Assembly (NCBI GenBank): GCA_945833885.1
Contig: CAMAFY010000016.1
Span: 1-54,174 of the forward strand
DNA from: an uncultured Bacteroidales bacterium
GTDB lineage: Bacteria; Bacteroidota; Bacteroidia; Bacteroidales; Bacteroidaceae
Reading direction: 5' to 3'
DNA: 54,174 nucleotides
Notes under the pieces: model-generated
Seen by the model: the letters and a program-made list of their open reading frames with translations, nothing else
What the model was told of the DNA's origin: nothing
The model's database searches: none
In this document: piece after piece, positions 9,550-54,174 of the stretch
How positions within the stretch are numbered: the stretch's first letter is position 1
How the letters are laid out: every line of letters starts with the position of its first letter
Translations under genes and position numbers: made by a program

Positions 9550-9660
9550 CTCCTTTCCCCAATCCCTTATGGATAGTGCGGCATTTCCATGCGAAAACCT
9601 CGGAACTTCCTCTGCAAAACCTCGGAACTTCTTCTGTCAAACATCGGTGGTTCCAGGGCC
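9550..9660. repeat. 22-bp tandem array between trmN6 and rplT
   Basis: Two clean 22-bp units (9594-9615 and 9616-9637) contain AAAACCTCGGAACTTC. They are flanked by degenerate units on both sides (9571-9592, 9638-9659). The unit is related to the GGAAAGTTCCGA-type units at 36691, 43969 and 54076. The rest of the 9394-9905 spacer has no visible gene. Confidence 0.8.
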
Positions 9661-9828
9661 GCTCTTCTGGCGGTTCACTCCTCCTTTTCAAGGGGTGCAT
9701 TTCCCGTGTTCGGCTACATAAATCTGTTCATTCGGGCGTGTAGTCCGTGATATTGGACTGTGTTCGACATCTTTCCTCACGAAAACAGGCCCACTTCCCG
9801 GCAAGACAAACTTACAGCCCCCACCTGA

Positions 9829-9868
9829 AAACAAGAAAAGGCTCACGCCATGATGGTGCAAGCCTTTA
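9829..9868 (-). terminator. Terminator of the infC-rpmI-rplT transcript
   Basis: On the minus strand AAGGCTTGCACC and GGCGTGAGCCTT form a hairpin with two wobble pairs and one mismatch around ATCAT. It is followed by TTTTCTTGTTTT. It lies about 40 bases after the rplT stop. Confidence 0.8.
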
Positions 9869-9905
9869 TGATTGATTGGGAATGTGGAATTTTTGTAGCC
9901 GTTAG

Positions 9906-10250
9906 TTACTTAACCTTGGCAACGATGGCCTTGAAAGCCTGGGGGTTGTTGACAGCGAGGTCAGCGAGAACCTTACGGTTGATCTCGATACCAGCCTTGT
10001 GAAGTCCGCCCATGAGTTGTGAATAACTCAGACCTTCGAGACGTGCAGCGGCATTGATACGCTGAATCCAGAGAGCGCGGAAGTTGCGCTTTTTGTTGCG
10101 ACGATCGCGGAAGGCATAGGTAAGACCCTTCTCCCAAGTGTTCTTGGCAACGGTCCAAACGTTCTTGCGGGCACCATAGTAACCGCGGGTAAGTTTAAGG
10201 ATTCTCTTGCGCTTTGCGCGAGAGGCTACATGATTTACTGATCTAGGCAT
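9906..10250 (-). CDS. rplT: 50S ribosomal protein L20
   Basis: A 114-residue, highly basic protein. It begins [18 protein letters not shown] and contains the L20 signature of residues 48-70, around [21 protein letters not shown]20 binds 23S rRNA early in assembly of the large subunit, and in several bacteria it represses its own operon by binding the leader or intergenic RNA. It is last in the infC-rpmI-rplT order and ends at a clear terminator. The length is normal. Confidence 0.98.
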
Positions 10251-10355
10251 AGTAAATTGTTTTTTGATTGCCAGCGTCGGACTTGACTATCCGAACTTTC
10301 GGTGCTGGGCATTCGGTGAATAAATGACTGTTGGTAAGATGTGTTTGGGAGAAGA

Positions 10356-10553
10356 TTAACGCATGCAGAGGAGTTCGCGAACCTGCTTTACATTGGTACG
10401 GTCAACGAGAGCAACGTGGTCGAGGTTACGCTTCTGCTTCTTGGTCTTCTTGGTCAGAATGTGACTGTGATAAGCGTGATGGCGCTTAATCTTACCTGTT
10501 CCGGTGAGCGTGAAACGCTTCTTTGCACCGGAATTAGTCTTTACTTTAGGCAT
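10356..10553 (-). CDS. rpmI: 50S ribosomal protein L35
   Basis: A 65-residue basic protein starting [24 protein letters not shown], the standard L35 opening, with the [14 protein letters not shown] core. It is a small component of the large ribosomal subunit. It lies 105 bp before rplT and 236 bp after infC. The latter gap is large for this operon and may hold a regulatory RNA structure. Confidence 0.98.
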
Positions 10554-10789
10554 TTGGTAAATGAAAAAATGGATTAATAAATGATTTTACGGTGCGGTTG
10601 CGCATACCTGGCACAACGCGCTACTATTGAATGTCGGAGGGCGGAACACGAAGGGAAGCGCCTTGCAGGATTGGTTTTAGTGATATGGAAACTGGGGTAG
10701 TTCCTGCAAGAACTGGTTCAGTGTTGACCGGCGGTCCGGGATTCTCTTTGAAAAGGTTGTGTGGGAACCGGTGTTTCGGTAGGGGCGTA
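10554..10789 (-). other. Long infC-rpmI spacer, possible autoregulatory leader
   Basis: A 236-bp spacer without a gene sits inside an operon whose genes are usually close together. It contains short self-complementary pieces such as AGTTCTTGCAGGAACT (around 10698-10713). In other phyla, L20 controls rpmI-rplT through RNA structures near this place. A similar function here is a guess from position. Confidence 0.35.
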
Positions 10790-11542
10790 TCAGAAGTCTT
10801 CGCCTTCAACCTTGGGGCCGGTGTATTCCTTGCGCTCCTTTTGCTTGGGTTGCTTCTTGACGGGAGCGGCAACAACGGTGTTCTCCTCGCTGTTGTCCTC
10901 AGCCATGTCGGTGTCCTCCACCTCGGCATTCTTCTTGGGAGCCGTCTTCTTGGGAGCGATGTACATGGTCATTCGCTTGCCTTCGAGCACGGGCATGGCT
11001 TCCACCTTTCCGTATTCTTCGAGGTCGTTGGCGAATCTGAGCAGCAGAACCTCGCCCTGTTCCTTGAAAAGGATGGAGCGTCCGCGGAAAAAGACGTATG
11101 CTTTCACCTTGTCGCCGTCGCTGAGGAAGCCTTTTGCGTGCTTAAGTTTGAAGTTATAGTCGTGGTCGTCGGTCTGAGGTCCGAATCTTATTTCCTTCAC
11201 TTCAATCTTCACCTGCTTGGCTTTCAGTTCTTTCTGTCGCTTTTTCTGCTGATAGAGGAACTTGCTGTAGTCAATCAGTCGACAAACTGGGGGCTCAGCG
11301 TTGGGGCTGATCTCTACGAGGTCAACATTTTTCTGCTGTGCAAGGCGAAGTGCGTCGCGGGTAGGGATCACCTGACTCTCAACATCATCGCCAACGATGC
11401 GTACTTCGCGGGCACGAATCTGTTCGTTGATTCGATACTGCTGTTGTTTTTTGTCGTTTTTTTGAGGTTTCAAGTTTCTTGGGCTTGTTGGTTTGTGACT
11501 GATATCAAAGTTTCGGTGGATTCTGTTTGTTACCACCGTCAA
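10790..11542 (-). CDS. infC: Translation initiation factor IF-3
   Basis: IF-3 binds the 30S subunit, blocks premature 50S joining and proofreads the start codon. Both domains are clear: the N-domain from [18 protein letters not shown] to [18 protein letters not shown], and the C-domain from [21 protein letters not shown] to [11 protein letters not shown] Lys/Glu-rich tail of ~45 residues follows, as usual in Bacteroidota. The start is uncertain. The ATG at 11542 gives a 36-residue extension before YRINEQ that is absent from usual IF-3. Its first codons lie inside a dispersed repeat (11515-11642). The mature family start corresponds to KNDKK just upstream of YRINEQ, where no in-frame ATG exists. 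A TTG codon (in NLKPQ) is a candidate. infC is known in E. coli to use a rare non-AUG start. Confidence 0.95.
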
Positions 11543-11642
11543 GTTTTATTGTATTTCGTGGGTCGCGTTTTGCCTTCTTCCTGTCTCTTTTCGATTGAAA
11601 ACAGGTTCGGAATCTGCCAAATCGATTTCAAGGAACCCACCT
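11515..11642. repeat. Dispersed element copy B, in the infC leader
   Basis: A copy of the GTGG(A/G)TTC element family. Left end GGTGGATTC (from 11516), then GTTACCACCG, GTGGGTCGCGTTTTGCC and CTTCCTGTC, ending in GAACCCACC (11633-11641), the inverse of the left end. It aligns over about 85 bp with the left arm at 35090 and with those at 19215 and 49173 (reverse). It lies between the predicted infC transcription start (~11677) and the infC coding region. Confidence 0.75.
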
Positions 11643-11683
11643 TTAATTATGCACAGAACCTTATGGGTGCATAAAATTCTGAG

Positions 11684-11714
11684 CAAAGGTAGCGTTTTTC
11701 CGTACTTTGCCAAA
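11684..11714 (-). promoter_or_regulatory. Predicted promoter of infC-rpmI-rplT
   Basis: Minus-strand TTTG (11711-11714), 19-bp spacer, TACCTTTG (11684-11691). Start of transcription near 11677. It lies just downstream of the thrS terminator, so infC is probably transcribed separately from thrS. Confidence 0.7.
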
Positions 11715-11731
11715 GTGTTTGCTGTTCTTTT

Positions 11732-11781
11732 CAAAGAAAAATGTCACCCCAAGAAGTTTTCTGACTACTTAGGGTGACAAT
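11732..11781 (-). terminator. Terminator of thrS
   Basis: On the minus strand TGTCACCC...GGGGTGACA forms a stem that extends by AAGTAGT/ACTTCTT with one mismatch. The loop lies around TCAGAAA. It is followed by TTTTTCTTT. It is 46 bases after the thrS stop. Confidence 0.85.
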
Positions 11782-11826
11782 CTTTGCGGTATTTCGGCAC
11801 GGAAAACGTGCGTTATGGTCTACGGA

Positions 11827-13779
11827 TTATTTGAATTCTCCGAGTTGTTCTTCGACTTCGGCGTGTACGCGCTTCACGAATTCCTCTACGCTCATGGTCT
11901 CAGGCTCTCCGCCTTTTCCGCCTTGTACACGAACGTTGACAAGGCCTTCTGCGGCTTCTTTCTCGCCGACGATGAGCATGAAGGGTATGTGTTTCATCTC
12001 GTTGTCGCGGATCTTTCGGCCGATCTTTTCGTTACGGTCGTCGATGAGAACGCGTACGTCTTCGGCTTCGAGTTGCGCCTTTACCTTGTAGGCGTATTCG
12101 TTTGACTTCTCGGAGATGGGGAGGATGACCACCTGGTCGGGCGTGAGCCAGAGGGGGAAATGTCCGGCAGTGTGCTCGATGAGTACCGCCACAAAGCGTT
12201 CCATACTTCCGAAGGGTGCGCGGTGAATCATCACGGGACGGTGCTTCTTGTTGTCCTCTCCGGTGTATTCGAGTTGGAAACGTTCGGGGAGATTGTAGTC
12301 GACCTGGATGGTTCCGAGTTGCCAACGGCGTCCGAGAGCGTCCTTCACCATGAAGTCGAGTTTGGGACCGTAGAACGCGGCCTCGCCGTATTCGATGTGT
12401 GCGGGAAGACCCTTTTCCTCGCAAGCCTCGATGATGGCCTGCTCGGCAGCCTCCCAGTTTTCCTCGGAACCGATGTACTTTTCGCGGTTAACCTTGTCGC
12501 GGAGAGAGATTTGTGCCTCATAATTCTCAAACTTCAAGGCCTTGAAGATGATGAGGATGATGTCCATCACGCGGAGGAACTCCTGCTTTACCTGGTCGGG
12601 GCGGCAGTAGAGGTGGGCGTCGTCCTGCGTAAATCCGCGTACGCGGGTCAGTCCGTGGAGTTCACCGCTCTGCTCATAGCGGTAGACGGTTCCGAACTCT
12701 GCCAGACGCAAAGGCAGGTCTTTGTAACTGCGGGGCTTCCATGCGTAGATGGCGCAATGGTGAGGGCAGTTCATGGGTTTGAGGAAGAATTCCTCGCCTT
12801 CCTCGGGAGTGGTGATGGGACGGTAGGAGTCCTTGCCGTATTTGGCATAGTGTCCGGAGGTGACGTAGAGGTTCTTCGAACCGATATGGGGCGTCATTAC
12901 CTGCTGGTAACCATAGCGCTTCTGGATCTTCTTCAGGACATCTTCAAGGCGGAGACGCAGTGCTGTGCCCTTGGGAAGCCACATGGGAAGGCCCTTTCCT
13001 ACGAGGTCGGAGAACATGAAGAGTTCCATTTCCTTACCGATCTTGCGGTGGTCGCGGCGCTTTGCCTCCTCAAGCAGGGTGAGGTATTCGTCGAGAAGTT
13101 TCTTCTTTGGGAAGGAAACGCCGTAGACACGTGTCATCATCGGACGCTTTTCATCGCCGCGCCAGTATGCCGAACTTACGCTCATCACCTTGAAAGCCTT
13201 GATGGGAGCGGTGGTCATGAGGTGAGGACCGCGGCAGAGGTCGGTGTATGCACCCTGGGTATATGTGGTGATATGACCATCCTCGAGTTCGGCAATGAGT
13301 TCGTTTTTGTATGTCTGTCCGTGGTCTCCGAAGAACTTCAGGGCCTCGTCCTTGCTGATGTTCTCGCGTACGAGCGCCTCTTTCTTCTGCTGGAGTTCCT
13401 GTACTTTCTTTTCGATTTTTCCGAAGTCTTCCTCGCGGATGGTGACTCCCTCGGGGGGCATCACGTCGTAGTAGAATCCGTTTTCTATGGCAGGTCCGAT
13501 ACCGAACTGTGTTCCGGGCCAGAGTTCCTGCATGGCTTCTGCCATGAGGTGTGCCGAGGTGTGCCAGAAGGCGTGCTTGCCTTCGGCGTCCTCCCATTTG
13601 TAAAGGTTGATGGTGGCATCCTCACAGATGGGGCGATTCAGTTCCTGCGTTTCGCCGTTCACACCGCAAGCCAGGACGTCCTGTGCCAGACGGCTGGAGA
13701 TGCTTTCGGCGATTTGCAATCCGGTAACGCCGCTTTCGTACTCGCGTACGCTGCCGTCAGGGAATGTAATCTTAATCAT
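11827..13779 (-). CDS. thrS: Threonyl-tRNA synthetase
   Basis: A 650-residue class II synthetase that charges tRNA(Thr) and edits Ser-tRNA(Thr). Domain order: TGS (1-~62, [17 protein letters not shown]), editing domain with [11 protein letters not shown] (~residues 75-85), catalytic core with the zinc-binding [10 protein letters not shown], motif 2 [15 protein letters not shown] and motif 3 around [11 protein letters not shown]. The C-terminal anticodon-binding domain starts near [20 protein letters not shown]. Full length. The start ATG at 13779 is 70 nt downstream of the predicted transcription start. It is followed by its own terminator, then infC. Confidence 0.98.
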
Positions 13780-13855
13780 TTCTTATGGTCTTTTTTTATC
13801 TTTGTTCAGATGATGTTGGCGCAAAATCCTTGCGGACATTACGCTTTTAGCGCGG

Positions 13856-13886
13856 CAAATTTAATAAATATTATGCTTATGGCAAA
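13856..13886 (-). promoter_or_regulatory. Predicted promoter of thrS
   Basis: Minus-strand TTTG (13883-13886), exactly 19 bp, TAAATTTG (13856-13863). This is a perfect match to the Bacteroidota consensus. Expected transcription start near 13849, giving a ~70-nt leader with a GC-rich inverted segment (GCTAAAAGC). Confidence 0.75.
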
Positions 13887-14007
13887 ATTTTCTATCTGAA
13901 AGGTGTGCTTTCCTCCTCACGTGCGTGTAATATATATATGTGGAAGCCCCCTAAATGTGCGATATTTGTTCCGTGGTTTTCTGGACTTTTGTCTGAAAAA
14001 GCAAATA

Positions 14008-14044
14008 AAATCCCCGCCAACGTGGTGTGCGATGGCGGGGATTT
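14008..14044 (-). terminator. Terminator of the glucan phosphorylase gene
   Basis: A perfect 12-bp stem, AAATCCCCGCCA (14008-14019) with TGGCGGGGATTT (14033-14044), and a 13-nt loop. It is followed on the minus strand by a T-rich stretch (TTTTATTTG). Confidence 0.9.
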
Positions 14045-14070
14045 ATGGTGCTTATAGCGCTTTCAGGAGA

Positions 14071-16701: not shown

Positions 16702-16898
16702 TTGTTATTTATATAAATAATGTGTTGTTTTTTATTGGGATTACCGAAGAATAGCCGCAAAAATGCTGTGGGGCATCCGCGTTTCTCCGTTCTTTTTCAG
16801 TCAGACCGCAATTCTTTTCTGGAATGAATGCTGTATCTTGCACTTGGGATGCTGTGTTTTGCGCTTCGTGTGCCGTTCCTAAATGGCAGGGGAGCAGT

Positions 16899-17187
16899 TC
16901 CTGTACATTCGGATAGCGGCTCTTGTACATTCGTGCGGCAGCACCTGTATGTTTATACTGCAACACCTGTGCGTTTATACTGCAATATCTGTGCGTGTAT
17001 ACCGCAATACCTGTGCATTTATACTGCAATATCTGTGCGTTTATACTGCAACACCTGTGCGTTTATACTGCAATACCTGTGCGTTTATACTGCAATACCT
17101 GTGCGTTTATACTGCAATAACTATGCGTTGATACGGCTATGCCAATGTGTCCGCATAGCGGTTCCAGTACATTCAAACAGCGGTTCC
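16899..17187. repeat. 22-bp tandem array between glycogen synthase and phosphorylase
   Basis: Nine successive 22-bp units from 16942 to 17139, most containing CTGTGCGTTTATACTGCAA, with the last unit degenerate. Flanking units of the same length but different sequence (containing GTACATTC and AGCGG) are on both sides. The array fills most of the 501-bp spacer and would be transcribed on the minus strand between the two glycogen genes. Frames stay open through it only because the unit lacks stops; I see no gene. Confidence 0.92.
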
Positions 17188-25225: not shown

Positions 25226-25732
25226 GGATGCAGCCGGACGGTTCGTCGCTTGTACACGTCGTTTTTCCGCACAACCGCATAGACGCATGGCCCGCCATCG
25301 CCTTCGGATGTCGTTAAAACGTGGAGGTATAAGAGGAAAGTCTGGGCAGCATAGGGCATTCCGCTTCTTAACAGGAAGGAGTCCGCGAGGGCTGAGTAAC
25401 GTAGAAGAAAACAACCGCCTCCGCATGATGGTGGCGTAAGGCCGGCATTCCTTGCCGGCGACATTGCGTCAGTTCATCATGTTGCTTTGAAGGAGGTAAG
25501 GGTGAGAAGGTGAGGTAAGGGCTCACCAGGCGGCTGGTGACAGTCGTGCTGTGCGTCTCGGAAGATGAAAGTCCGCGTATACCGGCGTCTGAGGGCGGCC
25601 CGTTCGAATGTCGTTGGCGACATGCGCCGGAGGGTAGGACGATAGAGGTGGTCGGTGACGTCCATCGTAGATAAATGACGAACGCTGCATTCGTGCAGTA
25701 CAGAACCCGGCTCATAGGCCGGCTGCATCCCT
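25226..25732 (+). ncRNA. rnpB: RNase P RNA (catalytic subunit)
   Basis: The ribozyme that matures tRNA 5' ends, bacterial type A. The universal cores are visible: GAGGAAAGTCTGGGC near 25333 (P4 and CR-I; the usual C is T here), GGTAAGGGTGAGAAGGTG... and AGGCGGCTGGTGACAG near 25493-25550, AGATAAATGACGAACG near 25668, and ACAGAACCCGGCTCAT near 25700. The ends are fixed by a perfect 12-bp P1 helix, GGATGCAGCCGG (25226-25237) with CCGGCTGCATCC (25719-25730). At ~507 nt it is long, with extra sequence in the P3 and P12 regions. A TATCTTC sequence at 25206 may be the -7 box. All open frames here are spurious. Confidence 0.95.
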
Positions 25733-26059: not shown

Positions 26060-26187
26060 GACATCGGAAATTCCGGTGTTTGTCGGGTGTGGCGGAAACA
26101 TCGGGACTTTGCCGTTGAAAGTGCGGAACTTTCCGTCGTGAAGTGCGGACGTTTCCGCAAAGAAATGCGGACGTTTTTTCGCGCCTT
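26060..26187. repeat. 22-bp tandem array
   Basis: Three clear 22-bp units start TGCGGAACTT (26122), TGCGGACGTT (26144) and TGCGGACGTT (26166). They are preceded by two or three degenerate ones. The type is related to the GGAAAGTGCGGA family seen at 36691 and 43969. Confidence 0.8.
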
Positions 26188-29639: not shown

Positions 29640-30529
29640 ATTGGTGGAATGTTTTGAGGGTTTGTGGTGAAAAGTGTTGGGAATACACGGGACGTTTGCG
29701 TCCGGGGGGCAGTGTCTGCAGCGCTCCCAGAGGAGGAACGACGGGGCGAAAGGATGGGGAAGGAGGGGATGGATGAAACGAAGGTGGGGTGGTGTGATGG
29801 GTGTTGTGTAGGGGTGTCGTTCCTAAGGTCTTGCACATTGGATGTGCATCGTCATTTGCACGCTCTGGAAAATGGTGTGGATGGAAGGGTGAGTGTTTGG
29901 ATGATGGAAGGGTGAATGTCTGGGTGATTAAAGGGTGAACGGGGAGGATTGAAAGGAAATGGTCGGATTTGTCGTTGTGGATTGTAGCGGAGGAGGGGGA
30001 TTTTGAGTGGCGAAGATGCTTGACTTTGCGGATTTCGTTTTCCCCGTTTCCGGCGCTCTGCCTTCGTTGTGCAATGCTGTTTCCGATGCTTTTCGGAGGT
30101 TGCTACCCGATGCTTCGTAGATTTGGGTTGCCTGTTTCCGACGTCCGTTTCACATTGTACAATGTTGCTTCCGATGCTTTTCGGAGGTTGCAGCCCGATG
30201 CTTCGTAGATTCGGGTTGCCTGTTTGCGGCGTTCGTTCCACATTGTGCAATGCTGTTTCCGATGCTTTTCGGAGGTTTCAGCCCGATGCTTCGTAGATTC
30301 GGGTTGCCTGTTTGCGGCGTCCGGTTACTCTCCTCTTATATATTATAGGAGCGTCCTCCGGGCGAGACAGGTCAGCCTGTCGTGTTTCCATTTCCTTCGG
30401 TGGGTGTTTCATCCTCTTTTCTCCTTTGTTTTGGGGTAAAACATCGGAGATGTGTTTTAGAATTGTGGTGTAATAGTTAAGTATTACACTGCAAAAGTAT
30501 GGCGGTTTTTTGAATTCCGCAAGTCTTTT
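29640..30529. other. Gene-free spacer dominated by tandem repeats
   Basis: Nothing coding is supported. It contains a 23-bp-like degenerate array (about 29875-29950, unit containing GGATGATGGAAGGGTGA), the 88-bp triple repeat at 30065-30328, and a small inverted repeat ACAGGTCAGCCTGT near 30367-30380. Confidence 0.7.
30065..30328. repeat. Three 88-bp tandem repeats
   Basis: TTCCGATGCTTTTCGGAGG recurs at 30081, 30169 and 30257, exactly 88 bp apart. The full block 30065-30328 is 264 bp, three units, about 90% alike. Each can be written as four 22-bp sub-units. The unit contains short palindromes (CACATTGTACAATG). Confidence 0.93.
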
Positions 30530-30624: not shown

Positions 30625-32250
30625 TTATGGTTTTGGGGTAAGGCGGGGAATCTCTATCGTCTGCCCCAGTTGAATGACGTCGGGATTGGAAATCTGGTTG
30701 TGGAATATGATGTAATTGGCCAGTTCCTTGTCGTTATAGTGCTTTTTTGCCAACTTGTAGAGGTTATCACCTACGGAGATGGTGTGCTGGGTGATGACAC
30801 CTGTGATGAGATAATCGCCACCTTCAAGTTGGGGATATTTGTTGGCGGCCTTAAGTTCAGCCTCACGTTGCTTGGCAACTTTTGCCTCTTCGGAGATTTC
30901 TGCGGCAGATGTTTGCACTTTGTTGCTTACAGCAGTGCTTTGTTGTGCGGAGTCTGCCGCTTCTTTCTTGGAGTTTTCCGCAATGGGTTTCTCTATTTTC
31001 GCCGGAGCAGGCTGGGGTTTTGCTGCAACATCCTTGTCGCTTGGAGAGAGAACATCGGTGATGACGCACGGAGGACAGAGGACTCGGTAGTAGCCGGCGT
31101 AGTAACTCAGCGTCATCAGTACAAGAGTGACGAGGACGATGAACGCTGTGCGCCACCAGTTGTGCCGTTCTGCGGCGAGGGTGTTCTGGATGACGATGGG
31201 TGATCCCTCGTGCATCTCTCCGTCGGGATATATGTGGATTTCATGCTTTTCTGAGGCATCTTTCTGTGCGTCTACCGTATTGTCGGAGTTGGTATTGCTG
31301 CATTCCTCTTCGCCGTCAGCCGGTGTTTCGCTTTCGTTTTCCTCCACCGGAGTTGCGTTTCCCGGACATTCCTCCTCAGGGTTGGCTGCCATTTCGCATT
31401 CGCCTTCCCCTTCAGGTGTTTCGTCCTCTGGACTTTCCTGGGTGTTCTCTTCAGTGGGAAGTTCCGGATTCTCCGCAGTCTCTGCTGTGTTTCCCGCAGT
31501 CTCCACTACGTCCTCCTCGGTTTCCGCTGTTGCTTCTTCCGCAGTCTCTGCTACGTCCTCCTCGGTTTCCGCTGTTGCTTCTTCCGCAGTCTCCACTACG
31601 TCCTCCTCGATTTCCGCTGTTGCTTCTTCCGCAGAGGTCTTTTCCTCTTCCGCATTATCGGCATAGGGATGTTGCTGCTTTTCTGCCTCGTCAATGAGGT
31701 TTTGGGCCTCATCCATCAGATTTTGCGTTTCCGCTTCCGGCAGGGGGGCGGTGTCATCTTTTGCTTTCGCACCTTCCGCATCCTGTGTTTTTACCTCATC
31801 GACATCGTCGTTCTCAGCAGTATCTTCGGATGTCTGCATGCTTGTTTCCTCAGCCATTTCCTCATCGGTACTGTCGGTATCGCTGGGAATGATGTCGTCG
31901 GCATTGTCAAGTTCGGAAATGTCGAAGTCATCATCCAAAGTGATGGTGGTGAAATGGTTGAACGGACGGTTGATAAGTTCCTTAAATGCGGCGTCGGGAA
32001 CGAAACTTACCTTCTCATGGCCGTTGATTTGGAAGCGTTCTCCCGTGTTGATGTTCACGCTTTCTCGGTCGCTGACGGTGACAATCTTGAAGGTTGCGAA
32101 GCCTTTTATCTTCAAAATACTGTCAGTAGTGAGCCCCTCCTCGGCAAGTTCGAAGAAGGCACGGACAAAATTTTCGGCTTTTCGCTTGGAAATGCCGGCA
32201 CGGTTGGCAAGGGCCTCTGCAAGATTGGGGAGGAGAATTTTGTTGTCCAT
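30625..32250 (-). CDS. HU-like DNA-binding domain / transmembrane helix / LysM protein
   Basis: A 541-residue protein joining three parts. Residues 1-~100 have the HU/IHF fold (LLPNLAEALANRAGISKRKAENFVRAFFELAEEGL, then the beta-arm region LKIKGFATFKIVTVSDRESVNINTGERFQI). Residues ~105-335 are an acidic, low-complexity spacer with three 15-residue repeats EEATAETEEDVAETA (208-252). Residues ~368-388 form a single membrane helix (FIVLVTLVLMTLSYYAGYY). Residues 488-536 are a C-terminal LysM domain (HTISVGDNLYKLAKKHY). The order predicts the HU domain in the cytoplasm and LysM in the periplasm, so it could tether DNA to peptidoglycan. It lies 6 bp after another HU gene and near rimO and ftsY. Related HU/SPOR proteins are known in Bacteroidota; the function is not established. 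Confidence 0.9.
   Translation of the reverse strand: MDNKILLPNLAEALANRAGISKRKAENFVRAFFELAEEGLTTDSILKIKGFATFKIVTVSDRESVNINTGERFQINGHEKVSFVPDAAFKELINRPFNHFTTITLDDDFDISELDNADDIIPSDTDSTDEEMAEETSMQTSEDTAENDDVDEVKTQDAEGAKAKDDTAPLPEAETQNLMDEAQNLIDEAEKQQHPYADNAEEEKTSAEEATAEIEEDVVETAEEATAETEEDVAETAEEATAETEEDVVETAGNTAETAENPELPTEENTQESPEDETPEGEGECEMAANPEEECPGNATPVEENESETPADGEEECSNTNSDNTVDAQKDASEKHEIHIYPDGEMHEGSPIVIQNTLAAERHNWWRTAFIVLVTLVLMTLSYYAGYYRVLCPPCVITDVLSPSDKDVAAKPQPAPAKIEKPIAENSKKEAADSAQQSTAVSNKVQTSAAEISEEAKVAKQREAELKAANKYPQLEGGDYLITGVITQHTISVGDNLYKLAKKHYNDKELANYIIFHNQISNPDVIQLGQTIEIPRLTPKP
31495..31632 (-). repeat. 45-bp coding repeats in the acidic linker
   Basis: Three 45-bp units code for the acidic EEATAE(T/I)EEDV(V/A)ETA repeats. 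Adjacent copies are nearly identical at DNA level, so linker length may vary among strains. Confidence 0.85.
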
Positions 32251-35088: not shown

Positions 35089-35457
35089 GTGGATTCTATA
35101 AGTTACCACCGCAAATTTTGTTTGTTGTAAGTGGGTCGTGTTTTTGCTGCCTTCCGGTCGTTTTTCGGCTTGAAACCCCTGTTCGTTCAGTCACATAGCA
35201 CGCTATATTCCATCATTCACAGGAATTTTCTTCTCGAAAAACAACTCGAAATCCGACGTTTTCGTTAAGCCAGATGAGCAGATGGGAAGCGGGTGCAACG
35301 CGCTTATGGTATGCCATGGCGAGAAAACGAAGGACGAAATCCAACGTTTTCGTTAAGCCAGATGAGCAGATGGGAAGCAAGTGCAACGTGCTTACGGTAT
35401 GCCATGGCGGGAAAACGAAGGATGAAATCCAACGAATCTAATTTGTAGAACCCACTT
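35089..35457 (+). mobile_element. Dispersed element copy A with internal 88-bp tandem repeats
   Basis: Left end GGTGGATTCTATAAGTTACC (from 35089). Right end TCTAATTTGTAGAACCCACTT (35438-35458), whose reverse complement matches the left end at 14 of 17 positions. The left arm has the conserved blocks GTGGGTCGTGTTTTTGC and CCTTCCGGTC. Then come two 88-bp direct repeats (35248-35335 and 35336-35423, containing CGTTAAGCCAGATGAGCAG) and the start of a third. No gene inside. The ends resemble the MITE at 7085-7275. Confidence 0.75.
35248..35437. repeat. 88-bp tandem repeat, two copies plus a partial
   Basis: Period exactly 88 bp (GAAATCC at 35248, 35336 and 35424). Differences between the two full copies are about 8 bases. 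88 equals four 22-bp units, the same length as the repeat at 30065-30328 although the sequence is different. Confidence 0.93.
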
Positions 35458-35771
35458 AAATTTATTTTTGTCCGCTAACTTATAGTTCAAAGTGCGGATG
35501 TTTTGAGCGGTTTAGGCCGTATATGATGCCGCGTGTCTTCGGCTTTCCTGCAAGCATATCGCGGTATACCTGATGGAAAGCACCGTATGTGGCATCGCGT
35601 ATCTTGGGTGTTTCGCCTTACTCTTAGGGTGCAAATTTAGCAAATATTTATGGAATTTTATGACTTTTCGGTGTGAAATGCGTGCAGATGTTCCTCTTTC
35701 TCTGTGCTTTAGCATGGTGGAAATGGAAAAAGAGCACAAAGATAGAGGGTAAGCGAATGCTTTTGTAGATG

Positions 35772-36690: not shown

Positions 36691-36888
36691 GAAGAAGTGC
36701 GGAAGTTTCTTTTGCAATGTTCCGAAGTTTCGTGTGGAAAGTTCCGAGGTTTTGTGTGGAAAGTTCGGAAGTTTCGTGTGGAAAGTGCGGAAGTTTCGTG
36801 TGGAAAGTTCCGAGGTTTCTCACACAATGTTCGGAGGTTGTCCCACGCGATATCCGGAGGCTTTGCGAGAGGATGTCCGAAGGGCTTG
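36691..36888. repeat. 22-bp tandem array between cinA-type gene and rpmB
   Basis: At least six strong 22-bp units between 36713 and 36844, most of the form TGGAAAGTTCGGAAGTTTCG. Less similar units follow up to ~36888. It occupies the spacer between the pncC-type stop (36949) and the rpmB promoter. Related units lie at 9594, 26122, 43969 and 54076. Confidence 0.93.
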
Positions 36889-40052: not shown

Positions 40053-40598
40053 TTAGGCGTTGGCTTCTTCAGCGGGCTGTTCCTGAGCCTCGGCTTCAGC
40101 CTTTGCGGCAGCCTCAGCCTCAGCCTTTGCGGCAGCCTCGGCGGCCTTCTTTTCTGCTACTTGCTCGGCCTTCTTGGCGTTAACAGCCTTTTCAGCCTCG
40201 AGACGTGCGGCATCTGCGGCCTTCTTAGCCTCAGCCTTTGCAGCAGCGAAAGCGGTGCTCTTGGCAACCTTCTCCTGCTTCCAAGCCTCAAACTTGGCCT
40301 TGGCAGTAGCCTCGTCGAACGCACCCTTCTTCACACCACCATTGAGGTGCTTCATAAGGAGAACGCCTTCGTCAGAAAGGATGTTGCGAACGGTGTCGGT
40401 GGGCTGTGCGCCACACTCTACCCAATAAAGGGCACGTTCAAAATTCAAATCTACAGTTGCAGGGTTGGTGTTGGGGTTGTAGGTACCGATTTTTTCGGTG
40501 AACTTGCCATCGCGAGGAGCGCGGGCGTCAGCGATAACGATGCTGTAGAACGCATAGCTCTTGCGACCATGACGCTGCAAACGAATACGTGTTGCCAT
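40053..40598 (-). CDS. rpsP: 30S ribosomal protein S16 with long Ala/Glu/Lys tail
   Basis: A 181-residue protein. Residues 1-~85 are S16 ([43 protein letters not shown]). The rest is an Ala/Glu/Lys-rich coiled-coil-like tail ending AEEANA. Long S16 tails are normal in Bacteroidota, but this one (~95 residues) is about as long as the ribosomal domain. It lies upstream of map with its own terminator between. Confidence 0.97.
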
Positions 40599-43581: not shown

Positions 43582-43690
43582 GGATAATGTCCGTCGGTGT
43601 GTCGGATAAATTCCGCCGACATACCGGATAATGTGTTCGGTTTTCCGGACAATTCCTCCCGACATCTCCGCATACGGCATCCTTTTACGC
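43582..43690. repeat. 22-bp tandem array after ssb
   Basis: Four units starting GGATAATGTCC (43582), GGATAAATTCC (43604), GGATAATGTG (43626) and GGACAATTCC (43647), at 22, 22 and 21 bp spacing. It lies in the ssb 3' untranslated region, before its terminator. Confidence 0.8.
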
Positions 43691-43968: not shown

Positions 43969-44056
43969 GGAAAGTGCGGAGGTTTACGGTGAAAAATGCG
44001 GCACTTTCCATACGAAACATCGGAACTTTCGGGCGGAAAGTTCCGATGTTTTTTGT
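43969..44056. repeat. 22-bp tandem array upstream of the lipoprotein gene's end
   Basis: Four units of exactly 22 bp (43969, 43991, 44013, 44035), the first and last of the form GGAAAGTGCGGAGGTTT or GGAAAGTTCCGATGTTT. The middle two look like the inverse-complement type (GCACTTTCC, GGAACTTTC), so the unit is partly palindromic. Confidence 0.85.
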
Positions 44057-47798: not shown

Positions 47799-47853
47799 AG
47801 TATTCGTTAAGGGTTAAGAGTAATCTGTGGGAAAAAAGGTAGGGGAATACAGA

Positions 47854-48785: not shown

Positions 48786-48943
48786 GGTGTTGGTTTGTCT
48801 TTTGAAGATGGTTGGTTTGACATGGTGGGTTCTGCAGGTCGGTCTTGCCGGTTTTTAAGTCTGCTCCCGAGGCTGATTTTTTCAGGGAATCAAGGTGTCT
48901 TGTTCGTTAAACTACTGAAGGAACAGCCGTTCTTGGTTGGAAA

Positions 48944-49119
48944 AAGGCCGGAAAGCGGTACTGAAATGGCCGAAAATCAGTGCCGGATAGGCCGGAAATC
49001 AGCACAAGATAGACCGGAAATCAGCGCCGGATAGGCCGGAAGTCAATACAAAAATGACTGGACGACGGCACAAAAAAGGCCGGGGCGACGGTACTGAATA
49101 GACCGGAAGATGACACAGT
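48944..49119. repeat. 22-bp tandem array, eight units
   Basis: Eight consecutive 22-bp units start near 48944, 48966, 48988, 49010, 49032, 49054, 49076 and 49098. They share AGGCCGGAAATCAGC with variations. The last unit (AATAGACCGGAAGATGACAC) overlaps the start of element copy E. Confidence 0.93.
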
Positions 49120-49175
49120 CTAACCCACAAATAAAATGATGTTTTACGGTGGTGTTTGATGGAAACCACCCTGCA
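49085..49175 (-). repeat. Dispersed element copy E
   Basis: Read on the minus strand from 49175: GGTGGTTTCCATCAAACACC, then ACCACCGTAAAACATCATTTT, GTGGGTTAGACTGTGTC and ATCTTCCGGTCT, the same order of blocks as copies A-C. The final CTTCCGGTCT belongs also to the 22-bp array. Confidence 0.7.
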
Positions 49176-49390
49176 TTTTTTACGGAATCTTCCATCAGCA
49201 GCCTCCTGACCTCGGGACATCTTGTAAGGATGTTGAGGACGTGTGGCGGCGAAATGTGGAAGAAATGTTTCCGCTATGCCTCGCAAATTTACAATAAATG
49301 CAATGAAATCATTTTAGGACATCGCGTGTTTTTTACTTTTTTCCACACCTTTTACCGTATTTTTACCGGAAAACCTCCTTTTAAGGCACG

Positions 49391-49419
49391 AAAAAAGGCG
49401 ACACACAGTCGCCTTTTAT
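49391..49419. terminator. Terminator of dnaG
   Basis: AAAAGGCGAC (49393-49402) pairs with GTCGCCTTTT (49408-49417) around a 5-nt loop. It is bidirectional, with U-runs on both strands. It lies ~50 bases after the dnaG stop. Confidence 0.92.
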
Positions 49420-49468
49420 TTTGAAATACAATGGATGTCTTTCCTATGAATGCCTACAAAGTGTGGCA

Positions 49469-51583
49469 TCAACGTGCGAGGATTCGTCCGCCAAGCACCT
49501 TTGCCAACTGGCGTTCTATGGTGTGTAGTTCGGTCAGACGTTGCATCATCCGGCACATTTCCTCGTCGTTGTAGCCGTTTCCGTTGGAGTTGAAGGCCTG
49601 CGACAGGGATTCCTTCTCGACAAGTACCAAAGCATACTTCAGTTCGTGCACGGCTCGGGGGATGGTAGTGTAGAGCCTTTGCTCCTCAGGCACGTATTCC
49701 CGGGCCTGATTCGTGGAGAGTTGTATGGTGTCTTGCTGCAATCCCACAGCCATAGCGCTGACACATTCGTCGGGATATTGGATAAAATGCTCGATGGTGC
49801 TGAAAAAAACGCCCGGTTCCGGCGCGTTTTCCATGAATTCCTCCACCTTCTGCACCGCCATTTGCAGGATTTCGTTGAACAGAGGTTGGGAGAATCTGAT
49901 GCCGTCGGCTTCAAGTTCCGCCATGATGTACGGTGCCACGAACGGACTTCCCTCCTCTGCGAGCAGTCGTCTGGCGCGTGGTTGTACGGCCGTTTCCTCA
50001 GTTTCCGTTGCCGTGTCCGCTTCCTGGTCATTGTGACCGCCGGTCTTCCAGCGTCTTTCCACCTCTTCCTGTTTGAGCAACAGCGGCATTCCTCCGTAGA
50101 GCATCACCTTTGAAATCAGGTTTCTTTCGCTTTCTGCCAGTCGTCGTTGGGCGGTAGAGGCGTGGACTGCCTGTGGAATCCTTTGCGGAGTTTCGGGCTT
50201 TTCCTCGACGGATGGCGTGGGTGTGGTGGCATTTTGCGCGTTATTGTCGGTCTCACCGTCGCGGACGCGCTTGCGGAAGATGGTGATTTCGTTCAGAAGT
50301 GTGGACTCGTCGACCTTCATGCGTTGTGAAAGGTCGCGGACATATTCGCCCCTGAGCACCTCATCCGGGATGATGGCGATGCTTTCCACGATATCTTTGA
50401 TGGCTGATGCACGGCGGATGGGGTCCTGCGATGCCTCTTTCAGGAGGAACGAAGCCTTGAAAGTGATGAAGTCGGTTTCGTTCTTTTCGATGTAATCCCG
50501 CAGGGCTTCCGGGCTGTGGCCTTGCGCAAAGGTGTCGGGGTCCTCGCCATCGGGGAGCATCAGTACGCGGATGTTGAGGCCTTCTGTCAGCAACATGTTC
50601 ACGCCGCGCAGGGCTGCGTGTATGCCGGCTGCGTCACCATCGTAGAGAAGTGTGACGTTTTCGGTGAAGCGGTGGAGGAGTTTCACCTGCTGGGTGGTGA
50701 GCGAGGTGCCGCTCGATGCCACAACATTCTGCACGCCGGCCTGGAACATGGATATCACATCGAGGTAACCCTCAACGAGAAATACCTTGTTGTATTTGGC
50801 AATGTATTGCTTGGCCTGATAGAGACCGTAGAGTTCGTTCTTCTTATGGTAGATGTCCGACTCGGGAGAGTTGACGTATTTGCCGATGCTTTTCGCCTTT
50901 TGCTCTTCTTTTGACAGGAGTGTTCGGCCACCGAATGCCACGACGCGTCCCGAAATGGTGAAGACCGGGAAGATGACGCGTCCGTAATACCGGTCGGAGA
51001 GTTTGCCGTCGTGACCTTCGATGGACAGACCCGTGTCGATGAGATATTTGCGGTCGTAGCCCTTTTCCGTGGCTTCGTAGGAGAGTGCCGTGCGCGATGC
51101 GGGTGAAAAGCCCAGTTGAAAGAGGCGGATAATGTCGTCGCGCAGGCCGCGTTGGCGGAAGTACGTCATGCCAATGGCGGCACCCTCGGCCGATTCATGG
51201 AGTGTTCGGACGAAAAAGTCCCGTGCCCACTCGTTGACAATGAACATCGCCTCGCGACTGTTCTGGCTTTCCCGCTCCTCGTCGCTGAGTTCCCGCTCCT
51301 GAACTTCAATGCCATACTTCCGCGCCAGCCATTTCATGGCCTCGACATACGAGAGTTGCTCATGCTTCATCAGGAAACTTACGGCATCGCCACCGTTACC
51401 ACAACTGAAGCATTTGCAGATCTGTTTGGAGGGAGACACCATGAATGAAGGGGTCTTTTCGTCGTGAAACGGACAAAGACCCTTGTAGTTGGCGCCGGAT
51501 TTGCGGAGGCTGACGAATTCGCCAACCACCTGTACGATGTCTGCGGCCGCCCTGATGCGTGCTATGGTGTTGCTGTCAATCAT
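49469..51583 (-). CDS. dnaG: DNA primase
   Basis: A 704-residue replicative primase. I start it at 51583 (MIDSNTIARIRAAADIVQVVG), 16 codons inside the open frame, because it matches the family. The CHC2 zinc finger is C37-x2-H40 and C58-x2-C61. The TOPRIM domain contains FLVEGYLDVISMF (Glu) and LLYDGDAAGIHAALR (DxD). After the core comes a linker rich in Thr/Pro/Glu, and a C-terminal helicase-binding helical region. The length is above the E. coli enzyme's (581 residues). A TAAATTTG box lies 46-53 bases upstream. Confidence 0.97.
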   Translation of the reverse strand: MIDSNTIARIRAAADIVQVVGEFVSLRKSGANYKGLCPFHDEKTPSFMVSPSKQICKCFSCGNGGDAVSFLMKHEQLSYVEAMKWLARKYGIEVQERELSDEERESQNSREAMFIVNEWARDFFVRTLHESAEGAAIGMTYFRQRGLRDDIIRLFQLGFSPASRTALSYEATEKGYDRKYLIDTGLSIEGHDGKLSDRYYGRVIFPVFTISGRVVAFGGRTLLSKEEQKAKSIGKYVNSPESDIYHKKNELYGLYQAKQYIAKYNKVFLVEGYLDVISMFQAGVQNVVASSGTSLTTQQVKLLHRFTENVTLLYDGDAAGIHAALRGVNMLLTEGLNIRVLMLPDGEDPDTFAQGHSPEALRDYIEKNETDFITFKASFLLKEASQDPIRRASAIKDIVESIAIIPDEVLRGEYVRDLSQRMKVDESTLLNEITIFRKRVRDGETDNNAQNATTPTPSVEEKPETPQRIPQAVHASTAQRRLAESERNLISKVMLYGGMPLLLKQEEVERRWKTGGHNDQEADTATETEETAVQPRARRLLAEEGSPFVAPYIMAELEADGIRFSQPLFNEILQMAVQKVEEFMENAPEPGVFFSTIEHFIQYPDECVSAMAVGLQQDTIQLSTNQAREYVPEEQRLYTTIPRAVHELKYALVLVEKESLSQAFNSNGNGYNDEEMCRMMQRLTELHTIERQLAKVLGGRILAR

Positions 51584-51628
51584 GGAAAGTGCTGGGAAAT
51601 CTGGGACGATTTGCTGCCAGAAATGACG

Positions 51629-51636
51629 CAAATTTA
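51629..51636 (-). promoter_or_regulatory. Predicted -7 box of dnaG
   Basis: TAAATTTG on the minus strand (51629-51636), expected start near 51622, leader ~38 nt. No matching TTTG at the normal 19-bp distance was seen, so it is tentative. Confidence 0.45.
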
Positions 51637-52160
51637 CGACTTTATCGTGATTTCATCCGCTATCGCTTCTGTTTTTTTCGTTCAACGGTATAAAAATGTC
51701 CGCAAAGTTTGAAAATAATGTGTAATTTTGCGGCATTGAATGTTCCGCATTCCGACAACGTACATGCCGTGCCGCGTGCCGTCGGTAGCGCATCAGCCGC
51801 ACGGATTTCGCCGCAGACCCCGTTCCCGCTGTGCCGCGTCCTGTGCCGGCAAGGGTGCTTTCCCCGGTGTGTATGCCGCCGCGTTTTGTATAAATTCAAT
51901 CCGCGTTTTGTATAAATTCAGCCATCTTTTTTTATAAATAGGCAATGCTTCTTTTTCGCAAAGACGGCGCATCTATTATAAATACACGGCACATCTTTTA
52001 TAGATAGACTGCACATCTTTGTTAAAAGACGACGCATCCGCCGCCTTCTTCCGCTTTTGCGGTTTTGCGGATATGGAGGTTCGGCATGGAAAAAGGGGCG
52101 AAAGTGAACGCTGCATCTGGAACACTCATCAATGTTTATCCATCGTTTTCAACGTCAACC
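51637..52160. other. 524-bp spacer between dnaG and the glucosaminidase gene
   Basis: Bidirectional regulatory region. It contains a plus-strand -7 box TAATTTTG (51723-51730) with AATAATGTG before it, the same motif as upstream of bamD. The 22-bp array at 51879-52032 follows. If that box is used, the plus-strand leader would be ~420 nt. No gene is supported. Confidence 0.5.
51879..52032. repeat. 22-bp tandem array in the leader of the glucosaminidase gene
   Basis: Seven units of 21-23 bp: two identical-start ones with CGCGTTTTGTATAAATTC (51879, 51901), then four of the CATCTTTTATAGATAG type (51923-52032). It lies between dnaG and the next plus-strand gene. Confidence 0.85.
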
Positions 52161-53048
52161 ATGAAACATCTGCTGTCAAGCCTCCTGTTTTTTGCCTTCG
52201 CGGCCTTTGCAAACGCGCAGAATAGTGCCTATCAACAGTATATCGAACAATATCATTCCATGGCCGTCGACCAAATGAAGCGCCACGGCATTCCCGCAAG
52301 CATCACCCTTGCACAGGCTCTTCTCGAGAGCAATGCCGGACGTTCCGTGCTGGCAATACAGGGAAACAACCATTTCGGCATCAAGGTTGGAGGAAATTGG
52401 ACCGGACCTTACATCATAAAGAGCGACGACCGCCCTGACGACCGCTTCAGAAAGTATAGGAATGTGTCGGAAAGTTATGAGGATCATTCGCTCTTCCTCA
52501 AGCGTCCGCGCTATGCCGCGCTATACGAATTGCAGACAACTGACTATGTAGGTTGGGCACGCGGACTGAAGGCTGCCGGATATGCCACCAACCCTTCATA
52601 CGCACAGTTGCTCATCAACATCATCGAACAGAACGACCTGACGCGGTATGACCGGATGGAGAATGCCGCATCCGGCGGACGGGATGCGCGGAATCAGGGC
52701 TTCCTTCAGCGCGTAATGCTCTGCAACGACGTGGTTTATCTGGTCGTAAGACAGGGGGAGACCTTCGCGGACATTGCAAAAGCGGCGAAAATCCGCGAGA
52801 GCCGTCTGCGCAGTTACAATGAGGTGGACCGCCATTATCGGCTGAAGGCCGGCGACCGCGTGTTCCTCAGCCGCAAGAAGACGCACGTGGAGAAGCCCCT
52901 ACGTGGGACAACACACCAGATAAGGACGGGAGAGTCGATGTACGACATCGCACAAATGTACGGTGTAAAGGTGGAGAGACTTTACAAATGGAACCATCTT
53001 GACGACGATTATTACCCCACGGAGGGCGACATCCTTGTGTTGAAATAG
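52161..53048 (+). CDS. Secreted N-acetylglucosaminidase with two LysM domains
   Basis: A 295-residue murein hydrolase. Start at 52161 (MKHLLSSLLFFAFAAFANAQ) gives a signal peptide; the upstream ATG at 52065 is not used. The catalytic glucosaminidase (FlgJ/GH73-type) domain runs from HSMAVDQMKRHGIPASITLAQALLESNAG, with the catalytic Glu in LLESNAG, to WARGLKAAGYATNP. Two LysM repeats follow (VVRQGETFADIAKAAKI and HQIRTGESMYDIAQMYGV). It cleaves GlcNAc in peptidoglycan during growth or division. Confidence 0.93.
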   Translation: MKHLLSSLLFFAFAAFANAQNSAYQQYIEQYHSMAVDQMKRHGIPASITLAQALLESNAGRSVLAIQGNNHFGIKVGGNWTGPYIIKSDDRPDDRFRKYRNVSESYEDHSLFLKRPRYAALYELQTTDYVGWARGLKAAGYATNPSYAQLLINIIEQNDLTRYDRMENAASGGRDARNQGFLQRVMLCNDVVYLVVRQGETFADIAKAAKIRESRLRSYNEVDRHYRLKAGDRVFLSRKKTHVEKPLRGTTHQIRTGESMYDIAQMYGVKVERLYKWNHLDDDYYPTEGDILVLK

Positions 53049-53345
53049 GGGAGAAGTGCGGATGAAAACGGCGCGAAGGCTGGGGGATGCCGTCGGAAAC
53101 GTCGGCGCTTGCCGTAAAACCTTCAGGGAAAACGGTGCCTAAAAGTCAGCATCTGTTCTTCAAGCCCCCTGCCGTTTGCACGGTCGTCTGCGGGAAACCC
53201 ACAGCATCTGTCCGCCCCAGGGCAACCTTTACGGCTGAACACCCTCGTTTTTTCTGCTGGGAAAAGATTGGAAGAAGGCAACGCACAACCTGCAAGACTG
53301 CAAAAAAATATATTGGAAAGAATTGAATAAATCCATCAAAAAATC
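53049..53345. other. 297-bp spacer without a gene
   Basis: No open frame with support. A GC-rich stretch and an A-rich leader (AAAAAATATATTGGAAAG) directly precede the next gene. Confidence 0.4.
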
Positions 53346-53849
53346 ATGACAAAACGTCTAAGACAGTACGTCGCCATCCTCGTAGCCCTTGTGGTTTATT
53401 ACCTTGTTCACGAAGGTGCGCATTTCCTTTCAGCCCTCTATTATGGCGTTTTTGAGAAAATCCGGTTTATGGGAGTAGGTGTACAGATAGTGGTAGACCA
53501 CGAATCCATGACGGAAACCCAACTCGGCGTCTTCTGTATTGTGGGTGCTTTGGCGACATTTGCCGTGGCGTGGGTGCTCGTAGGCGCCACATCGCGCATC
53601 TGCATGCTGAAATCGAAGTTGCTGCGCTCGTGTTTCTACTACACCAGTATTGCACTTTTGCTGATGGACCCCGCATATCTGTCGGTCCTCTACCGCTTTT
53701 TCGGTGGCGGAGACATGAACGGCATCCGTTTTCTTTTGCCGGAAACGGTGGCGTGTGGCGTATTTGCCGCCCTGTTTGTGGCACATCTTGTGGTGTTCTT
53801 CAAATTCCTCCTTCCGCGCTATAAGGCTTCGTTTGCGGAAAACACCTGA
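53346..53849 (+). CDS. Membrane protein with HExxH motif (M50-like, unclassified)
   Basis: A 167-residue membrane protein with four hydrophobic segments: ~8-28, ~62-82, ~95-115 and ~135-155. The first contains HEGAH (residues ~23-27: YYLVHEGAHFLSALYYG), the HExxH zinc signature placed inside a helix as in site-2 proteases. A later MDPAYLSVLYRF could provide the third ligand (Asp, in the S2P-like position), but the normal LDG motif is absent. I cannot assign it to a subfamily. It could be an intramembrane metalloprotease or an inactive relative. The start ATG at 53346 is preceded by an A-rich stretch without a clear Shine-Dalgarno. Confidence 0.7.
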   Translation: MTKRLRQYVAILVALVVYYLVHEGAHFLSALYYGVFEKIRFMGVGVQIVVDHESMTETQLGVFCIVGALATFAVAWVLVGATSRICMLKSKLLRSCFYYTSIALLLMDPAYLSVLYRFFGGGDMNGIRFLLPETVACGVFAALFVAHLVVFFKFLLPRYKASFAENT

Positions 53850-54174
53850 AAATCCTGACGCGCTTTTACAGAATCTTTTATAAGGTTGCGACGAATCGTT
53901 TACGGGTTCAAAAGACCCGTATGTAGGGTTCTGAGGAATCCATAATGGTTTTTTCGAAGACTCCATAATGGTTTTCAGCAGACTCCATAATGGTTCTCCG
54001 CAGACTCCTTAATAAGGTTTCGAAGACTCTATAAAAGGGATTTGAGGTCCCGTTTGCAAAGTTCCGCTCTTTTGCCCGGAAAGTTCCGCACTTTACATCA
54101 CAATGTTCCGATGTTTTGTCCGGAAAGTTCCGCACTTTACATCACAATGTTCCGATGTTTTGTCCGGAAAGTTC
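53850..54174. repeat. 22-bp and 44-bp tandem array, running past the window end
   Basis: From 53936, five units of 22-23 bp of the form GACTCCATAATGGTTTT, then two mixed units. From 54076, a 44-bp repeat (CGGAAAGTTCCGCACTTTAC...) has copies at 54076, 54120 and 54164, exactly 44 apart and identical. The last is cut by the window end. The sequence is related to that at 36691 and 43969. Confidence 0.93.

Follow-up and report, generated by a model that had tools for sequence, protein, structure and literature searches.

Several described systems come close to the repeats reported here. The BrickBuilt miniature inverted-repeat transposable element (MITE) of Porphyromonas gingivalis, also a member of the Bacteroidales, is intergenic, is built of tandem 23-nt units of about two helical turns, each part conserved and part not, and occupies 19 loci in one strain; 22-nt repeats are mentioned for strain W83 in the same account (PMC4596501). 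Repetitive extragenic palindromic (REP) sequences and bacterial interspersed mosaic elements (BIMEs), with their RAYT transposases, are described as short, many-copy intergenic palindromes, some of them species-specific, with a preference for tandem and convergent spacers (PMC3733652). PINSR of Prevotella intermedia, from a related genus, is a lineage-specific intergenic repeat of 177-184 copies without terminal inverted repeats (PMC4755523). Among proteins, AsnC/LrpC and RemA octamers have eight DNA-binding units per ring, four dimers in LrpC, and AsnC/LrpC octamers have been proposed to bind DNA in a nucleosome-like manner, wrapping it along several sites (PMC8481266). Here we analyzed a 54,174-bp stretch of DNA from an uncultured Bacteroidales bacterium (the window; the entire contig C16, CAMAFY010000016.1) together with its genome (G000) and related genomes, and describe a discrete intergenic cis-element, dispersed genome-wide, that usually consists of four dyads at a step of exactly 22 bp.

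BrickBuilt differs in having a leader and a tail with IS5-type inverted ends, 1 to 22.8 units and a single sequence family; its description, as far as compared, includes neither a fixed number of four nor a dyad (PMC4596501). REPs carry GTAG/CGTC tags, form stem-loops and are irregularly grouped according to the account compared (PMC3733652), whereas the G000 elements show no clear tag, no covariation between arms and an exact 22-bp step, and the lone Y1-like gene of G000 has no strict motif nearby. PINSR is 188 bp long, with no 22-bp dyad array in its description as far as compared (PMC4755523). No description of four-dyad 22-bp elements was recognized in the open-licence literature, as judged mostly from listings.

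G000 comprises 3.1 Mb in 89 contigs and is 87% complete. Its host is probably Alloprevotella-like, judging from RimO, whose nearest named relatives among the best 80 of 150 loci surveyed belong to uncultured Bacteroidales metagenome-assembled genomes (76, 72 and 65% identity) and an uncultured Alloprevotella (65%). We sampled 834 kb, the window plus 39 stretches of 20 kb, with genes called by a simple codon model and arrays detected by Tandem Repeats Finder at a score ≥50 (≥30 for checks within the window). Among 158 intergenic arrays, a few counted twice through the overlap of L019 and L020 (L020 was excluded from later statistics), the period was 22 bp in 104, 44 in 12, 66 in 2, 88 in 6, and 110 and 154 in one each; the remainder had periods of 21 (13), 23 (4), 43 (3) or 20 bp (3), or of 10, 11, 12, 17 or 32 bp (9 together). 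Within called genes, 26 of 33 arrays had a period that is a multiple of 3, and 7 had one of 22 or 44 bp, some of these plainly being the intergenic motif inside over-called genes.

The same period dominates autocorrelation. In the intergenic DNA of the window, peaks were found at lags 22, 88, 44 and 66, and across the G000 sample at 22, 44, 66, 88 and 110, with a match rate at lag 22 of 0.311 against a median of 0.260 and a flat profile at 33, 55, 77 and 99. The lag-22 peak was not seen in G000 coding DNA, where multiples of 3 rise, and it survived masking of all arrays of score ≥30 with 44-bp flanks (0.287 versus 0.259). Taken singly, about 35% of 315 spacers had a lag-22 z above 3, a share that rose to 56% among the 73 that were 400-700 bp long; at seven control lags it was 0 to 9%. 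Since the detected 22n arrays make up only about 6% of the intergenic bases, much of the signal must come from weak or decayed repeats. The intergenic share, by our own gene calls, is about 24% of sampled G000, and 8-24% in the congeners sampled. The original prediction, made from the letters of the window, had held that its intergenic arrays are built on multiples of 11 bp, with a regularity beyond chance. The excess over chance is borne out, in intergenic and not in coding DNA, and extends genome-wide; the unit is not, because the missing peaks at 33, 55, 77 and 99 make the G000 period 22n rather than 11n.

A degenerate 15-bp dyad, AAASWNCSGNWSTTT, was matched by 41 of 119 tested units. It has 400 copies in G000, versus 4 for a reversed control, and two dyads at a 22-bp step occur 144 times in G000 and never in 60 other genomes, 36 of the same genus. 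For 116 dyads matching a slightly looser pattern, nearest-neighbor distances up to 300 bp were 22 (41), 44 (10), and 66, 110 and 240 bp (one each); none was 21, 23 or 33 bp. Of 59 independent loci, 49 have a further unit at +22 and 39 have one at -22; apart from 22 and 44, no offset between 15 and 65 bp is occupied at more than one locus. A step of 21 extended 1 of 113 sites and a step of 23 extended 9, by one unit each. Across independent loci, the 15-mer columns at ±22 average 0.71 bits, versus about 0.1 for the 7-bp spacers, and adjacent spacers within an array share 4.4 of 7 positions versus 2.9 at random (12 pairs). Inside single arrays, conserved and variable blocks reached p < 0.05 in 0 of 16 non-motif and 1 of 7 motif arrays. 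The preferred number of dyads is four, found in 35, 38, 34 and 30 of 60 loci at four thresholds and in 41 of 63 by a matrix-based count. A four-dyad element spans about 80-90 bp and holds eight half-sites; each step includes 6-8 bp of spacer that is not conserved.

The elements are biased in their setting. In G000 the motif occupies 14 of 36 convergent spacers, 4 of 37 divergent spacers and 31 of 260 tandem spacers (convergent versus divergent, p = 0.007). Part of this reflects the greater length of convergent spacers; a length-controlled comparison leaves a smaller bias (14 versus 10.0 expected, p = 0.017). Among arrays outside called genes, none lay within 100 bp of a called start and 11% lay within 100 bp of an end. 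The convergent bias and the absence near starts are easier to reconcile with an architectural or insulating role than with control of promoters.

In the window, the dyad elements and the arrays without the motif are as follows.

26096..26176, no strand assigned: four-dyad element, dyads at 26096, 26118, 26140 and 26162 in 22-bp steps, the first two being strict 15-mers
43971..44051, no strand assigned: four-dyad element, dyads at 43971, 43993, 44015 and 44037, a motif run of 4 units
36694..36840, no strand assigned: expanded array with seven dyads in 22-bp register; the loosest threshold adds an eighth
54058..54174, no strand assigned: dyad array of at least 5 dyads, cut by the contig end
9595..9653, no strand assigned: three degenerate dyads, each matching 13 of 15 positions, in a Tandem Repeats Finder array
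35489..35503, no strand assigned: single dyad just past an 88-bp repeat
16943..17134, no strand assigned: 22-bp array specific to this locus, motif absent, 8.7 copies, flanked on either side by diverged units, one matching place genome-wide
48945..49045, no strand assigned: 22/44-bp array without the motif, found by Tandem Repeats Finder
51879..52038, no strand assigned: 22-bp array without the motif, TATAAAT-rich units in two drifting sub-arrays
53924..54034, no strand assigned: 22-bp array without the motif, TCCATAATGG units, found by Tandem Repeats Finder
30067..30323, no strand assigned: higher-order 88-bp (4 x 22) array, 2.9 copies
35247..35434, no strand assigned: 88-bp (4 x 22) array of a dispersed family with 23 genome matches including itself
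4985..5236, no strand assigned: poor G/T-rich array of 32-33 bp, adjoining a 44-bp stretch

Of the dozen array loci in the original prediction, 10 were found by Tandem Repeats Finder, which reported none at 43582 or 43969; the latter is nevertheless a four-dyad element of the common motif, and at 43582 nothing was confirmed. The coding repeats of 69 bp (3317-4181) and 45 bp (31494-31634), said to be the only ones, both exist, alongside others of 12/24 bp (40086-40145) and, weakly, 21 bp (31685-31725). About 370 bp ahead of the element at 26096 lies a bacterial class A RNase P RNA (25230-25730, plus strand; Rfam, 186 bits). The 88-bp array at 30067 occupies the spacer just downstream of the gene for a 541-aa protein (30625-32250, minus strand) with an N-terminal HU-type DNA-binding domain and a weak C-terminal LysM match, and the 45-bp coding repeat sits between these two parts.

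Related genomes carry the same layout in other letters. TAACCSTASGGTTA has 49 exact copies in the congener G007; among the 61 genomes searched it was otherwise seen once, in a single genome, and was absent from the other 59. G007 loci have four dyads in 9 of 9 cases, or, under a looser rule, four in 8 of 10 and five in two. The congeners G010, G012, G015, G017 and G020 carry repeated dyads of their own, spaced 21 or 22 bp, and the step is 21, 22 or 23 bp by species, near two turns throughout. No such autocorrelation peak was found in Dysgonomonas or in the pooled other families of the order. Units from the same genus are palindromic on average (5.20 of 7 pairs versus 4.36 shuffled; 41 units, 10 individually at p < 0.05), as are those of named relatives (5.26 versus 4.54; 35 units, 3 individually at p < 0.05). 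Four units were judged by eye at L051, L058, L132, L155, L176 (at 9647), L187, L188 and L191, and by matrix two of three G015/G017 loci had three dyads and one had four. The third dyad of the four-unit array at L191 (8850-8927, G017) is inverted relative to the others, which suits recognition of dyads and not of oriented repeats. In another congener (G009), many intergenic arrays of 7, 8, 14 and 16 bp and one of 22 bp were seen in 40 kb (L146, 6245-13400), so the genus also includes a different repeat habit.

A second group of carriers includes cultured species. In Bacteroides mediterraneensis (G062), GRAAACRTACGTYTYC with at most one mismatch gave 62 forward and 62 reverse matches, partly at the same places (control 0 and 3); the counts were 14 and 16 in Phocaeicola plebeius (G061; control 2 and 4) and 0 and 1 in P. 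faecicola (G066). At 20 motif-chosen G062 loci all steps were 22 bp (36 of 36); the matrix count of dyads per locus was limited in this genome to the 10 of 20 loci with a strict seed. The element of this Phocaeicola group is discrete, about 100 bp long, with one T-rich and one A-rich end. Across four genomes, 33 of 37 elements are made of three complete palindromes between two terminal half-sites, again eight half-sites. The loci were picked by motif match, and 37 of 39 gave an element (L250 and L252 did not; L269 was not included). At the B. mediterraneensis locus L237, the FopS small RNA (RF04319; 1688-1754) and a 16S rRNA gene (2919-4001) flank one element.

We compared presumed orthologous elements without gaps in eight pairs, of which three reuse L233, L254 and L255, and L235/L261 and L264/L266 were paired by eye from flank similarity. 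Differences were found at 47 of 384 fixed half-site positions (12%), 30 of 128 degenerate positions, 73 of 192 spacer positions (38%) and 94 of 320 flank positions (29%). Given the dependence among the pairs and the part that the motif played in finding them, this divergence is support rather than proof. In P. plebeius one orthologous convergent spacer has no element, with 85 bp between the aligned gene parts versus 223 where the element is present, so elements come or go; no target-site duplication was visible at this single empty site, where the spacer is hardly alignable.

The empty site bears on whether four-dyad elements are non-autonomous, MITE-like mobile elements, a separate family in each species, with the dyads as transposase or recombinase sites and the arrays as by-products. 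The dispersal and species specificity of the families are what such elements would show, the ~100-bp Phocaeicola-group unit has inverted T-rich/A-rich ends and inverted terminal half-sites, and BrickBuilt is a MITE around 23-nt tandem repeats (PMC4596501). However, besides the lack of a visible duplication at that site, no conserved terminal half-sites surround the G000 or G007 arrays, half-sites are conserved and spacers free at presumed orthologous loci, and a preferred internal number of four would not be expected. No mobile partner was linked in a search limited to Y1 transposases. One weak Y1-like match each was found in G000 and G007, with no strict motif in the surrounding 6.0 and 5.5 kb (a non-motif 22-bp array is present in the 6.0 kb around the G000 gene), and there was no Y1 match in G013, G016 or G019, which are 89-91% complete and have 21- or 22-bp arrays. 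We therefore rejected a RAYT partner and regard the mobile-element explanation as rather unlikely.

Palindromes between convergent genes could also act as RNA, in the form of tandem hairpins, REP/BIME-like or terminators. REPs share the palindromic, intergenic character and the enrichment between convergent genes seen in G000, and CGTC-type REPs are reported in Bacteroidetes (PMC3733652). Hairpins are nevertheless unlikely because the arms do not covary. If anything they avoid complementarity, with z of -3.0 and -1.0 in G062 and of -0.6 and -3.3 in G000 under two pairing schemes, and in the commonest G000 form a CAT arm stands opposite a GTT arm, with which it does not fully base-pair. REP tags were not clearly enriched: GTAG occurred in 1 and CGTC in 8 of 226 G000 flanks, with about 4.4 expected by chance for each, so that CGTC is above expectation but small, and GTAG in 0 and CGTC in 1 of 18 G007 flanks (chance about 0.4). 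On each strand the Phocaeicola-group element is T-rich at the 5´ side and A-rich at the 3´ side, the reverse of an intrinsic terminator. No Rfam family matched at the elements in the window or at 11 loci of relatives; in the window the only match was the RNase P RNA, and at one locus 16S and FopS matched off the element. Together, these data make a function as RNA very improbable.

Two further origins were considered and rejected. Steps of 22 bp with 6-8-bp spacers do not suit a CRISPR array, and no cas family was found among 20 window proteins (NCBIfam). As for phage, the G000 pair pattern occurred in one viral contig and the Phocaeicola pattern in none; the viral hit (L270), over the 270 bases compared, is A-rich and looks unlike the G000 elements.

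The remaining 78 of the 119 tested units lack the motif. They are not palindromic, at 4.33 versus 4.19 shuffled and with 3 of 78 reaching p < 0.05. Neither a favored copy number nor a bias of context was seen (7 of 36 convergent and 6 of 37 divergent spacers). Of 360 spacers, 93 had any cross-hit: 49 contained the motif, 22 matched the window's 88-bp-repeat spacer directly and 28 did neither, so far as sequence comparison can tell making the non-motif arrays seem mostly unique to their own locus. The units hold no residue of the motif when compared with real intergenic 22-mers (55 units, -13.07 versus -13.11, p = 0.57); a weak likeness relative to shuffled units (-16.7 versus -18.9) vanished in this comparison and was dropped. 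Pairwise likeness among 59 non-motif units was slightly above that of shuffles (85 versus 41 pairs at 13 matches) and was not used. Motif and non-motif arrays share spacers no more often than length predicts (11 versus 14.1 expected). The 88-bp family (35247-35434 and 22 other G000 matches) has diverged copies in the congeners G007 and G023, where longer matches have 69-78% identity, and shorter matches in G012, G014 and G021; the family is thus older than the species-specific dyads.

In the arrays as printed, inner units are alike, outer ones diverged and higher-order units present, as in satellite DNA. We take the non-motif arrays to be local tandem amplifications, by slippage or unequal exchange, that hold the 22-bp register. 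Those of period 22 may be relics of earlier motifs that kept the register, or may come from a duplication mechanism with a 22-bp ruler. Extending this view to all arrays would make every one of them functionless satellite-like DNA and the 22-bp register a frozen accident. The higher-order periods of 44, 66, 88, 110 and 154 bp, the diverged outer units, the near lack of relatedness and palindromy among non-motif units, and the termination of the contig at 54174, inside an array, all agree with that. It suits the arrays without the motif. The dyad elements do not fit it: independent loci conserve the 15-mer but leave the spacer free, several species with unlike letters again settle on four, and presumed orthologous loci keep their half-sites. 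Nor does it explain the choice of 22 by unrelated sequences. We consider this extension unlikely.

The original prediction had favored a single common cause for the arrays, either slippage in a mobile element or a DNA-binding architecture with sites on one helix face, the geometry suiting a nucleoid protein such as an HU-like one. A single cause is not supported, given the differences between motif and other arrays in palindromy, copy-number distribution and gene context, and the absence of motif residue. Phasing by DNA curvature, or by a non-specific nucleoid protein wanting A/T tracts on one face, could draw on the unit of two helical turns and on the AAA and TTT blocks of the G000 dyad. The A/T autocorrelation of non-motif units at 11 bp is, however, nil (-0.047 ± 0.041), that of motif units is positive at lags 8-10 and not at 11, and the missing peaks at odd multiples of 11 speak against phasing as well. 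Species-specific dyads would be unexpected for a non-specific protein and argue against HU, toward which nothing else points. Such phasing is hardly credible. Overall, the earlier observation is confirmed and widened, and its interpretation is half right: about a third of the arrays, with their conserved dyad, variable spacers, exact 22-bp step and preferred four, are best read from the sequence as a DNA-binding architecture, and the others are not.

From the fixed step, the free spacer, the independent half-sites and the preferred eight, we infer an octamer of four dimers. In this model each dyad would bind one protein dimer as double-stranded DNA, four dimers would assemble side by side on one helix face into an octamer, and the octamer would wrap or stiffen about 90 bp of DNA. 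The G000 element would be an architectural or insulating site between transcription units and not an operator, and half-site sequence and protein specificity would shift between species while the geometry is kept. We give a probability of about 0.5 to this reading as a whole, in which the dyads are double-stranded DNA sites of an octameric protein with an architectural or insulating role in G000 and the other arrays are local amplifications.

Several observations weigh against it. The number is not always four: G000 dyad runs reach up to 11 units, two G010 loci have five units and L059 six, and three were found at L074, L079, L090, L052 and one L176 locus. Other species use a step of 21 or 23 bp, and pooled same-genus relatives peak at 21, 42 and 63 instead of at 22. 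The one-contig congener G004 has no 20-23-bp intergenic arrays in 120 kb, and the system is for this reason probably dispensable. Of 20 B. mediterraneensis loci, 10 were tandem, 7 divergent and only 3 convergent, showing no convergent preference, and the orthologues were partly found via the motif, which biases the comparison toward conserved half-sites. Finally, no binding protein was identified among the candidates tried, an Lrp orthologue and RemA. Unlike the sites, the Lrp helix, SRAA[IV]HQ[RH][VI], is nearly constant in G000, G007, G010, G012 and G020 though their motifs differ; this comparison excludes G015 and G017, whose frames began after the helix, and the second AsnC protein of G000. 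RemA (PF04025) was found in 0 of 37 genomes, with 3 of 14 control genomes positive.

As the REP tests failed and neither a protein nor a mobility mechanism was identified, we file the dyad elements with the dispersed intergenic palindromic elements, as a new variant. More speculatively, and with doubt, many Bacteroidales might carry a chromosome-organizing system of conserved geometry and species-replaced letters, in which an octamer of fast-evolving specificity would recognize four abutting dyads at a step of 21-23 bp, eight half-sites in all. In G000 its 22-bp ruler would have been imprinted on unrelated spacers, and the chromosome-organizing machinery itself might template or stabilize 22-bp duplications.

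Known bacterial intergenic repeat families are recognized by shared sequence; here the layout is kept and the sequence is replaced between species, as expected of a site and protein pair in fast co-evolution. Dozens of unrelated arrays with one period in one genome also raise the question of what generates tandem repeats of a set length. Should the octamer model be true, the dyad elements would deserve a class of their own. They offer a direct way to track down a new architectural protein in gut Bacteroidales, and cultured carriers, B. mediterraneensis and, with fewer copies, P. plebeius, make the model testable.

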